Source: Rhodoferax sp. (GTDB lineage Bacteria > Pseudomonadota > Gammaproteobacteria > Burkholderiales > Burkholderiaceae_C). From it: a stretch of 50,894 nucleotides of DNA. Below the pieces are notes generated by a model that worked only from the letters and a program-made list of their open reading frames with translations, was not told where the DNA came from and made no database searches. Position numbers and translations under genes: made by a program. This document shows, one piece after another, positions 36,994 to 40,025 of the stretch (position 1 is the stretch's first letter; every line of letters starts with the position of its first letter). The stretch lies in NCBI RefSeq assembly GCF_018063565.1, contig NZ_JAGPBB010000018.1, positions 1-50,894 of the forward strand, read 5' to 3'.

Positions 36994-37584
36994 TCAGCGC
37001 CGGTCGACCAGCGCGTGGGCAATGGTGCCCAGGTCGACATACTCCAGCTCACTGCCCACCGGCACGCCACGGGCCAGTCGGGTCAGCTGCAGGCCGCGCG
37101 ACTTGAGCCCCTCGCTGATCACATGGGCCGTGGCCTCACCCTCCGCGGTGAAGTTGGTGGCCAGAATCAGCTCCTGCACCGTGCCGTCCAGCGCACGGTC
37201 AAACAGCTTTTTCAGCCCAATGTCTTTGGGACCGATGCCATCGAGCGGGCTGAGTTTGCCCATCAGGACAAAGTAAAGCCCCTTGTACGCACCGGTGCGC
37301 TCCAGCGCCGACTGATCGGCCGGCGTTTCCACCACACACAGTTTGCTGGCATCACGGCGCGGGTCCAGACAGGTGTCGCAAACGCTGTGTTCGGTGAAGG
37401 TGTGGCAACGCTCGCAGTGCTGGATGTGCTGGGCCGCCTGCGCCAGCGCCCGCGACAGCGCCATGGCACCACCCCGGTTGTGTTGCAGCAAATGAAAGGC
37501 CATGCGCTGCGCCGACTTGACCCCCACCCCTGGCAGGCAACGCAGCGACTGGATCAGCGCCTCCAGCGCATTGATGTCAGACAT
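36994..37584 (-). CDS. recR: Recombination mediator RecR
   Basis: 196 residues. RecR, with RecO and RecF, loads RecA at gaps. Helix-hairpin-helix [20 protein letters not shown] at the N-terminus, a four-cysteine zinc finger ([20 protein letters not shown]), then the Toprim domain with [20 protein letters not shown], and the C-terminal [18 protein letters not shown] at 37582-37584. It lies 30 bases downstream of the YbaB gene in the widely conserved dnaX-ybaB-recR order and converges with mltD. Confidence 0.97.
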
Positions 37585-37614
37585 GCAGACCTGCGTGCAC
37601 CGGGCTGCAAAAGT

Positions 37615-37947
37615 TCAGAACGGGAACTTCATGCCGCCGGGCAACCCCGGCATACCGGCGGTGATCTTGCCCATCTTCTCGGTCGACGTGTCTTCCGCCT
37701 TGCGCACGGCGGCATTGAACGCCGCCGCCACCAGGTCCTCAAGCATGTCTTTGTCGTCGGCCAGCAGGCTGGGGTCGATGGTGACGCGGCGCACTTCGTG
37801 CTTGCAGGTCATGGTCACCTTGACCAGTCCCGCACCCGATTCGCCCATGACCTCGATGTTGCCCAGTTCGTCCTGGGCCTTTTTCATGTTGTCCTGCATC
37901 GCCTGCGCCTGCTTCATCAGGCCAGCGAGTTGTCCTTTGTTGAACAT
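37615..37947 (-). CDS. YbaB/EbfC-family nucleoid-associated protein
   Basis: 110 residues. Dimers of this family bind DNA with a tweezer-like arrangement and influence nucleoid structure and gene expression. [39 protein letters not shown] and [20 protein letters not shown] are diagnostic; the C-terminus [13 protein letters not shown] is the usual glycine- and methionine-rich tail. It lies between dnaX and recR and is almost certainly co-transcribed with both. The 59-base gap to dnaX holds nothing recognisable apart from the ribosome site. Confidence 0.95.
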
Positions 37948-38006
37948 GGAATTCCTTGGAGTTAATTGATCAGATGTGTTGCACCCAAGTCCGCGCCAGC
38001 GCAGCG

Positions 38007-39875
38007 CTAAAGCGGCTTGATACTGCCGGGGACGATTTTCGCCCCAAAATCACGCATCATGGTTTGCACGAACGGGTCATCAAAGACGATTTTCTCGGCC
38101 GTCAACTGGCGCTGCGCTGCCGCCGCGGCATTGCGCCGGGCGGGGCTGTCGCTGACCCGGCCCACCTCGATCACCAGACGCACCGGGTAACCCGCATGGG
38201 CCAACGCACCCGCCAATCGTTCGCGGCTGCCACTCTGGTTGAGCGACTCGCGCTCCACCCGCAGCAGCCACTGGTCGGTGTCGCGCGCCACCAGTTGCGA
38301 CTGCAGCGCCAGCTCGCGCACCATGGCGGCAATCGCCTCGCTGGCAATCAGTGCCTGCACGGTGGCGTGCCAGAAATCACCCTCGGCGCTCGGGCTCAGG
38401 GTTTGCACGGCTGCGGCAGCGGCCACTCCATCACGCAACGAGTCCGCTTGCACCCTGACCTGCACCGCCTCGATGGACGTCTGGGCCGCCGGCATGGCCC
38501 CCCCCGCCAGACGCGGGACCGGCGTCCCGGGCACAGCGGCGACCCCGCCAACTGGCCCTGGCCGGTCCAGAACCGGTAAACGCTGGCCCGCTGGCAGCAC
38601 CACGTTGCCATCTTTTTTTATAGCATCTTCATCAGTCTGGGTGTGCGCTGGAGCCGATTTTTGTTCAAAAACAGGTGGAGGCGCCGGCTTGGAAGCTGCC
38701 GCCACCGGCGCGCGCTCAATGGCCGAAGCCGCCGGTTTCAGAGTTTTTTTTTCCGCCGCCGCGACCGGCTGCCCGGGCTTGAACGCCAGCAAGCGCAACA
38801 GCACCATGGTCAAGGCCGCATATTCATCAGGTGCCAGACCGAGTTCACCACGCCCGTGCAGGCACAGGCTGTAGAGCAACTGGGTTTCGTCCGGCGGCAT
38901 CAGCGCCGCCAGGCGCAGCAGCTCGGCGTGCTCGGGGTCATTGTCATCTTCGCCGGCCAGCGCTGGCACCGCCTGGATCACCGCCATGCGCTGCAGCACG
39001 GCGCTCATTTCTTCGAGGGTTGAGGCCGCACTCAAACCATTCAGACGCAGCGCCTCGGAGGTTTCGACCACCGTTTTGCCATCGGCCGTGGCCAACGCAT
39101 CCAGCAGACGAAACACATAACTGCGGTCCACACTGCCCAGCATCTGTCGCACCGTCAGCTCCCCCAGTGTTCCCGCACCAAAGGCAATGGCCTGATCGGT
39201 CAGGCTCAAGGCGTCGCGCATGGAGCCACGCGCTGCCCGTGCCAGAAGCTTGAGCGACTGGGTATCGGCTTGCACCTGCTCGGCCAGCAGCACGCGTTGC
39301 AGATGTTCGCGGATGGTTTCAGGCGCCATCGGACGCAGATTGAACTGCAAGCAGCGGCTCAATACCGTGACCGGCACCTTTTGCGGGTCGGTGGTGGCCA
39401 GCACAAACTTGAGGTAGTCGGGCGGCTCCTCCAGCGTTTTCAACATGGCGTTGAACGCCGTGTTGGTCAGCATGTGCACTTCGTCGATCATGAAGACCTT
39501 GAAGCGCCCCTGCACCGGTTTGTAGACCGCCTGTTCCAGCAAGGTCTGAACCTCGTCAACACCGCGGTTGGAGGCCGCATCGAGTTCGGTGTAATCGACA
39601 AACCGGCCGCTGTCGATGTCGGTGCAGGCCTGGCATACGCCGCAGGGTGTTGCGGTAATGCCACCACTGCCGTCCGCGCCCTGGCAGTTGAGCGACTTGG
39701 CCAGAATACGCGACACCGTGGTCTTGCCCACCCCGCGCGTGCCGGTAAACAGGTAGGCATGGTGCAGGCGCTGGCTGGTCAGCGCGTTGCTCAGGGCTTG
39801 CACCACATGGTCCTGCCCAACCATCTCGGAGAAATTGCGGGGGCGGTACTTGCGGGCGAGCACGAGGTAAGACAT
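38007..39875 (-). CDS. dnaX: DNA polymerase III tau (and possibly gamma) subunit
   Basis: 622 residues for the full-length tau form. DnaX is the motor of the clamp loader and, as tau, holds polymerase cores and helicase together. The AAA+ part has Walker [10 protein letters not shown], a zinc module with CGVCQAC, Walker [11 protein letters not shown] and the SRC motif in [12 protein letters not shown]. Domain III ends near residue 370. At residues 375-377 (EKK) the mRNA has nine consecutive adenines followed by a stem-loop; both shifted frames stop within 12 codons, giving gamma-like products of about 378 or 386 residues (see separate entry). The linker that follows is Ala/Pro-rich and includes sequence resembling the interspersed repeat. 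ATG at 39873-39875. Confidence 0.96.
38619..38672 (+). repeat. Repeat-like sequence inside the dnaX tau linker
   Basis: TATAGCATCTTCATCAGTCT, then GGGTGTGCGCTGGAGCCGAT and TTTTG. The ATAGC...GCGCTGGAGCC-GATTTTT block order matches the intergenic copies at 13265 and 14173. In the dnaX frame it encodes the linker around [12 protein letters not shown], which is expected to be unstructured. It is moderately diverged, so chance similarity cannot be excluded. Confidence 0.45.
38704..38753 (-). promoter_or_regulatory. Putative programmed frameshift / slippage site in dnaX
   Basis: On the coding (minus) strand G-A9 (38753-38744) sits in frame as GAA AAA AAA ACT. After seven bases (CTCTGAA) comes ACCGGCG (38736-38730), which pairs perfectly with CGCCGGT (38710-38704) across a 19-base loop. 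One extra A or a -1 shift gives nine further residues and TGA; one A fewer or +1 gives Leu and TGA. E. coli makes gamma by ribosomal -1 shift at A6G with a stem-loop, and Thermus thermophilus by transcript slippage on A9. The position just after domain III fits both precedents. Confidence 0.65.
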
Positions 39876-39915
39876 GGCCGCGATTCTAAGGGCCGGGTCA
39901 GCCCGACGCTGTGGC

Positions 39916-39927: not shown

Positions 39928-40025
39928 CGACGGGCCTTCCCGCATGGTAAAGCGGCCAACCGGGTCAGGTGGGGAACCAAGCAGCCCTAACTGTGGAGCC
40001 AGTGCCGGGGTCAAGGCTCGTCACC
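39928..40025 (+). ncRNA. ffs: Signal recognition particle 4.5S RNA
   Basis: The conserved SRP domain is plain: GGGTCAGGTGGGGAACCAAG at 39962-39981 followed by CAGCCC, which is the GGAA-type tetraloop and the symmetric/asymmetric internal loops that bind Ffh. The 5' end GACGGGCCTT (39929-39938) pairs with AAGGCTCGTC (40013-40022) to close the hairpin, and CCCCCTTTTT follows as terminator. The total length of about 98 bases fits bacterial small SRP RNAs. The location directly divergent from dnaX is common in betaproteobacteria. The ends are inferred from pairing. Confidence 0.93.

Follow-up and report, generated by a model that had tools for sequence, protein, structure and literature searches.

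In Thermus thermophilus, dnaX is a described case of transcriptional slippage (Larsen et al. 2000, as cited in PMC5009743, PMC1088944 and PMC3711429). According to portions of PMC5009743 and PMC1088944, RNA polymerase slips there on a run of nine A residues (A9), with stop codons nearby in both alternative frames. Nine is also the length at which, as one portion of PMC1088944 has it, a large share of genomes begin to show selection against slippage. Excerpts of PMC3711429 and PMC5009743 present a different arrangement in Escherichia coli dnaX, namely an A_AAA_AAG heptamer with a Shine-Dalgarno (SD) sequence upstream and a stem downstream. Split dnaX genes carrying a run of ten A residues (A10), in which tau needs recoding and for which slippage was proposed, are reported in an excerpt of Antonov et al. 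(2013, PMC3711429). In Caulobacter, the gamma form derives from tau by proteolytic processing, and the portion of PMC5009743 that deals with it describes no slippery run. The same paper, again in part, links E. coli gamma to UV resistance and Pol IV mutagenesis. A 2012 review states, in the part available, that outside enterobacteria and Thermus most bacteria lack a dnaX frameshift signature and may make no gamma (PMC3290774).

We analysed the dnaX gene of a Rhodoferax sp. contained in a window (the whole stretch of DNA under analysis) of 50,894 nucleotides. As in the Thermus type, tau is encoded by a single ORF, here of 622 amino acids. The features of the locus are as follows.

38007..39875, minus strand: dnaX, clamp-loader tau subunit, 622 aa in the zero frame (ORF, translation, TIGR02397 above cut-off, Pfam).
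38766..39875, minus strand: domains I-III (residues 1-370), common to tau and the predicted gamma (Pfam).
38744..38752, minus strand: candidate A9 slippage run, codons GAA AAA AAA ACT, E375-T378 (sequence; kept in the best 80 of 569 relatives).
38738..38743, minus strand: CTCTGA, with additional conservation at the nucleotide level (codon +3 ACT or ACA, codon +4 CTG or CTA, next base A; clade contexts).
38738..38740, minus strand: TGA of the +1 frame, reading CTC TGA, one codon past the run; predicted product 378 aa ending in EKKL (sequence).
38730-38736 and 38704-38710, minus strand: arms of a 7-bp perfect stem, judged incidental (z -0.25; not clade-wide).
38716..38718, minus strand: TGA of the -1 frame; predicted product 386 aa ending in NSETGGFGH (sequence).
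38022..38396, minus strand: tau domain V (residues 494-618), absent from the predicted short products (PF12170).

Read on the coding strand from position 38753 downward, the site is GAA AAA AAA ACT CTG A, the first codon touched being E375. The -1 frame continues after the run as AAC TCT GAA ACC GGC GGC TTC GGC CAT TGA. The heptamer lying in phase inside A9 is A_AAA_AAA, not A_AAA_AAG. Pfam assigns domain III (PF12169) to residues 241-367 and also matches the DnaX lid. Since domain III ends at residue 367 and domain V starts at residue 494, both predicted short products (378 and 386 aa) would contain domains I-III only and would thus be gamma-like. The original prediction had placed the run just after domain III, on which sequence and Pfam agree; the early stops that it described in both alternative frames (386 aa in -1, 378 aa in +1) and the perfect ACCGGCG/CGCCGGT stem seven bases past the run are likewise present.

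The site has in common with Thermus dnaX an A9 run in a single-ORF gene, nearby stops in both frames and a (here predicted) short form without the C-terminal part of tau. Thermus belongs to a distant phylum, however, and its run lies about seven-eighths of the way through the gene (PMC1088944, in part), whereas that of Rhodoferax sp. lies at 60%, just after domain III. In addition, the Rhodoferax sp. run is conserved throughout a clade and has a conserved hexamer behind it, and slippage is here predicted from sequence alone. With E. coli dnaX, the locus shares the use of one gene for long and (predicted) short DnaX and the presence of a -1 heptamer; it differs in having A9, no SD sequence, no conserved stem and, in the Rhodoferax sp. 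clade, both frames sealed by stops. The Caulobacter route is proteolysis, with ClpXP as the protease, and that of Rhodoferax sp. is predicted slippage on A9; both would yield a gamma form. A poly-A run in dnaX is also what the split genes of Antonov et al. contain, but Rhodoferax sp. dnaX has one open frame for tau.

Downstream of dnaX, two ORFs of 110 and 196 aa (36994-37947, minus strand) look like YbaB/EbfC and RecR; dnaX-ybaB-recR is a usual gene cluster. Directly upstream, on the opposite strand, is a bacterial small SRP RNA (RF00169, 59.9 bits) at 39929-40025 (plus strand). The dnaX linker holds a second run, A7G, at 38612-38619 (minus strand; ATA AAA AAA GAT, approximately codon 420); among 105 loci, few have a run of at least seven A residues near this place. 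The window as a whole contains three A8 matches against 0.74 expected, two of them inside the dnaX run, and three matches were also reached in 9 of 100 shuffled versions. Eight A9 runs were counted over both strands of the genome assembly (4.1 Mb in 196 contigs, 93% complete). Inspected by eye, only that of dnaX reads as A residues well inside a recognisable long gene; of the others, L373 is a T9 in the early part of an ORF resembling a secreted protein and L367 precedes an apparent ThrRS start.

Conservation of the run had at first been counted over 174 run-bearing contexts, a set conditioned on the run, and the count was repeated on an unselected set. The latter comprised the best 80 of 569 related stretches, ranked by protein similarity and not chosen for the run, none of the six seed peptides spanning A9; it includes Rhodoferax, Polaromonas, Variovorax, Ramlibacter, Curvibacter, Caenimonas and many MAGs. 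Among these best 80, the run is kept in phase without exception, as A9 in 79 and as A10 in one (L040), because in the latter the base before the run is A instead of G. Parsimony on a tree of the dnaX domains gives 0 changes at the nine A sites, against 4-24 changes at each of eight conserved Lys codons in the same genes, where AAG is the commoner codon (464 AAG vs 176 AAA). Every conserved Lys (8), Leu (40), Glu (13) and Thr (15) column of the same 80 genes has more than one codon among its rows, and the ninth A is unchanged while the next base of its codon changed seven times. The comparison proposed with the original prediction thus shows the run to be kept in relatives in which synonymous sites vary. 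In the linker stretch examined, AAA is commoner than AAG (658 vs 488), so the case rests on absence of change, not on codon rarity. The place of the run within the linker varies, from codon 370 to codon 408 in the numbering of Rhodoferax sp. dnaX.

Both alternative frames are sealed. Stops occur within 15 codons in the -1 and +1 frames of all the best 80 of 569 relatives, with the +1 stop one codon past the run or nearer in 77 and the -1 stop at index 10 or less in 77. A larger set of 174 distinct clade contexts, all with the run and hence conditioned on it (9 of 183 were dropped, belonging to other families or having a broken frame), was compared with control positions in the same genes. The +1 stop lies one codon past the run in 157 of the 174 contexts (3.3% of 8960 control positions), the -1 stop is at index 10 or less in 167 (31% of controls), and both frames are stopped within 15 codons in 170 (26% of controls). 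The +1 stop is mostly built by CTG-A or CTA-A: codon +5 begins with A in 154 of the 174 contexts, coding for Lys (64), Asn (37), Ile (23), Thr (23) or Ser (7), and its first base underwent 18 changes on a 168-row tree vs 73 changes of the residue. Such constancy suggests that a stop is under selection in a frame which a -1 shift would not enter. Altogether, A9 is almost certainly a recoding site for tau and gamma; this switch, the core of the original prediction, is strongly supported by comparison, through the conservation of the run and the sealing of both frames.

We consider it probable that the recoding is made by RNA polymerase slippage on A9. The polymerase would lose register on the run and produce dnaX mRNAs with nine or other numbers of A residues. 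Messages with nine A's, or with nine plus or minus multiples of three, would give full tau; all other counts would lead into a frame stopping within about a dozen codons, yielding gamma-like proteins of about 378-386 aa with domains I-III only. That both frames are sealed is what indels of either sign, and hence slippage, would call for, whereas a -1 ribosomal frameshift needs one stop only. Slippage is also favoured by the retention of nine A's where a -1 ribosomal heptamer needs seven. Against it, a valid -1 motif, A_AAA_AAA in phase, accompanies the run everywhere. The run, its phase, its conservation and the two sealed frames are observed; that slippage occurs, how efficient it is and what the short form does are points that we infer.

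A programmed -1 ribosomal frameshift of the E. coli kind, made at A_AAA_AAA with the stem as stimulator and giving the 386-aa gamma only, appears unlikely. It would account for the in-phase heptamer with a 7-bp stem 7 nt downstream in Rhodoferax sp., for the near -1 stop in 167 of the 174 contexts, and for the presence of A_AAA_AAG in place of A9 in two lineages of the clade. However, it leaves unexplained the +1 stop one codon past the run in 157 contexts, and the two A's outside the heptamer are unchanged in the best 80 of 569 relatives. Nor do the stimulators of such a mechanism stand out. In Rhodoferax sp. dnaX, the stem has a z of -0.25, with 78 of 200 shuffles folding equally well, and by eye its arms are absent from the closest relative (L004). 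Stems starting 4-9 nt past the run average 4.24 bp vs 5.11 bp at control places, although the A-rich start of the stretch after the run may contribute to this shortening. The clade mean folding z just past the run is -0.46, and five other offsets gave means between -0.40 and 0.27; strongly folded windows (z below -1.5) are slightly commoner just past the run (16.7% vs 4-11.5%), and this somewhat raised share is the sole result that leans towards structure. For these reasons (the z value, the missing arms, no clear enrichment in the clade) the stem-loop was rejected as a clade-wide stimulator. An SD sequence was rejected as stimulator as well: motifs of this kind are not enriched upstream, being found in 4.6% of the 174 contexts and 4.6% of 6250 control windows, and by eye none is present in the 16 nt upstream of A9 in Rhodoferax sp. 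dnaX. Rfam includes a dnaX element; scanning positions 38000-39900 at E up to 5 returned three sub-gathering matches only, to unrelated families. The original prediction proposed to check whether the stem is kept in related dnaX genes and held that run and stem together left the mechanism open. The latter view is not supported, as the stem is not a clade feature and the lack of a conserved stem and of an SD sequence, with both frames sealed, favours slippage.

Ribosomes sliding both ways on A9 in normal mRNA, so that both frames are used and the message is unaltered, would be consistent with two sealed frames and no stem, and three AAA lysines have been enough for a truncated product to appear (PMC4363877, in part). 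We regard this as very unlikely. An excerpt of that study on its three-lysine series (9, 10, 11 and 13 A's) reports robust truncation for A11; its authors hold that ribosomes normally translate two AAA codons, the number present here, with no sliding (PMC4363877). The dnaX precedents known from portions of PMC5009743, PMC3711429 and PMC3290774 are slippage, -1 frameshifting or proteolysis.

That the run is kept for the protein (an EKKT motif in the linker), with no second product, is highly improbable: Glu, Lys, Lys and Thr/Ser are nearly fixed in the 174 contexts, themselves chosen for the run, but the third positions of the run's Lys codons show no change among the best 80 of 569 relatives vs 4-24 at eight conserved Lys columns, the run shifts within the linker, and codon +5 conserves its first base far more than its residue.

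The distribution of the run was surveyed at increasing distance. In the genus (89 genomes), the 49 other loci comprised 46 with A9 in phase, two with A10 and a broken frame (L341 and L344) and one (L345) lacking a run up to the end of its contig; some of these loci are from the same organisms as the best-80-of-569 set. In the family (150 genomes drawn evenly), 129 loci gave 76 A9, one in-frame A10, three A_AAA_AAG and 49 with neither; L114 and L172 also belong to the family and have A9, but were counted under class and order, respectively. Sampling the order (100 genomes, 68 loci) yielded five A9 in the same phase (including L172 and L173, the latter far downstream at codon 521), one A9 in another phase, two A10, four shorter runs and 56 loci with none. 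The class (140 genomes, 29 loci) yielded three A9 (including L114 and L142, the latter far downstream), one A10, one A8 and 24 with none. By longest run, 60 further class loci divided into six A9, two A10, one A11, 11 shorter and 40 with none. Near stops in both frames were seen in L415, L421, L435, L446, L456, L464 and L471 and were absent in L442 and L437; these observations in the L415-L471 loci are given without a null, and some of the loci have AT-rich DNA, in which chance alone makes stops frequent. Other families, too, thus have poly-A runs in their dnaX linkers.

The A11 of L437, a distant relative, reads AAA AAA AAA AAT TAA, so that the zero frame stops there and the -1 frame is open for 209 codons; tblastn with the tail of Rhodoferax sp. 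dnaX did not match a tau tail in L437. Two loci from one other family of the same order, L187 and L199, have A9 too; in both, the -1 frame stops at index 1, but the +1 frame stays open, for 110 codons in L187 and 78 in L199. Here A9 may serve a ribosomal shift, and such a -1-only pattern means that A9 alone is no proof of slippage.

A quick tree of domains I-III was built from 104 selected rows; it is unrooted, 37 of its 100 inner branches are weak, and the direction of change is one that we infer. One set of 73 rows (support 99) unites 68 of the 70 rows that have A9 with two run-less rows and three with A_AAA_AAG. The latter (L167, L257 and L266) are the only ones among 129 family loci with in-phase A_AAA_AAG as the longest A run; L257 and L266 are sisters and L167 is elsewhere on the tree. 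L257, L266 and L167 have -1 stops at index 1, 1 and 3, +1 stops at 40, 18 and 7, and a downstream fold z of -2.3, -1.5 and -1.5, respectively; L257 and L266 have GAGGAG or GGGAG upstream of A_AAA_AAG. An E. coli-type A6G site thus appears to have replaced A9 twice within the clade.

The two A10 loci of the genus are L344, from a single-contig genome, and L341. Their zero frame closes shortly after the run, and the tau tail (49% and 73% identity, respectively) is encoded in a different frame, an arrangement similar to that of the split genes of Antonov et al. The third frame of L344 is open for 70 codons and a run of C's is found close behind its A10; homopolymer sequencing errors may be behind the A10 of both loci. 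Separately, L340 has an intact A9 and a frame break further downstream, due to assembly error or decay.

Conservation extends past the run in an unusual manner. Thr at codon +3 is encoded by ACT in 107, ACA in 30, ACG in 7 and ACC in 2 of the run-bearing contexts. Three conserved Thr columns elsewhere have ACC 260, ACG 189, ACA 23 and ACT 11, and fifteen Thr columns in the best 80 of 569 relatives have ACC 666, ACG 416, ACA 61 and ACT 44. At codon +4, Leu (155 cases) is CTG in 136, CTA in 19 and never TTG, a codon that makes up 1119 of 5227 Leu codons elsewhere and which, as TTG-A, would preserve the +1 stop. The ACT/ACA bias and the lack of TTG imply that the bases after the run are constrained beyond the needs of two stops. 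Preference for ACT as a means to avoid Pro (from ACC) at the C-terminus of the +1 product was considered but is not supported, the bias persisting in contexts where the +1 stop has moved away (n=17: ACT 5, AGC 5, AGT 3, ACA 3, ACG 1). A bolder and less probable reading is that the conserved C-T/A-C-T-G/A-A is a cis signal tuning RNA polymerase slippage on A9, forming a compact 15-nt cassette with a downstream element and without RNA structure, which would have been swapped at least twice for a ribosomal A6G with both DnaX forms kept. The conserved hexamer, with a rare codon following AAA AAA, might just as well act at the level of translation, which counts against slippage.

In conclusion, the clade-wide A9 of dnaX is probably a further case of the known Thermus-type slippage, with the extra conservation behind the run unexplained. 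No earlier description of a dnaX A9 site in this Burkholderiales clade was recognised among the titles, starts of abstracts and term counts listed, subscription journals being mostly outside that scope. The clade keeps a dnaX recoding signature under strong selection, which contrasts with the statement of the 2012 review. The A9 and A6G solutions are seemingly used by related lineages, making the purpose of gamma testable by comparison, and the clade offers a natural series for asking how the rate of slippage is set.
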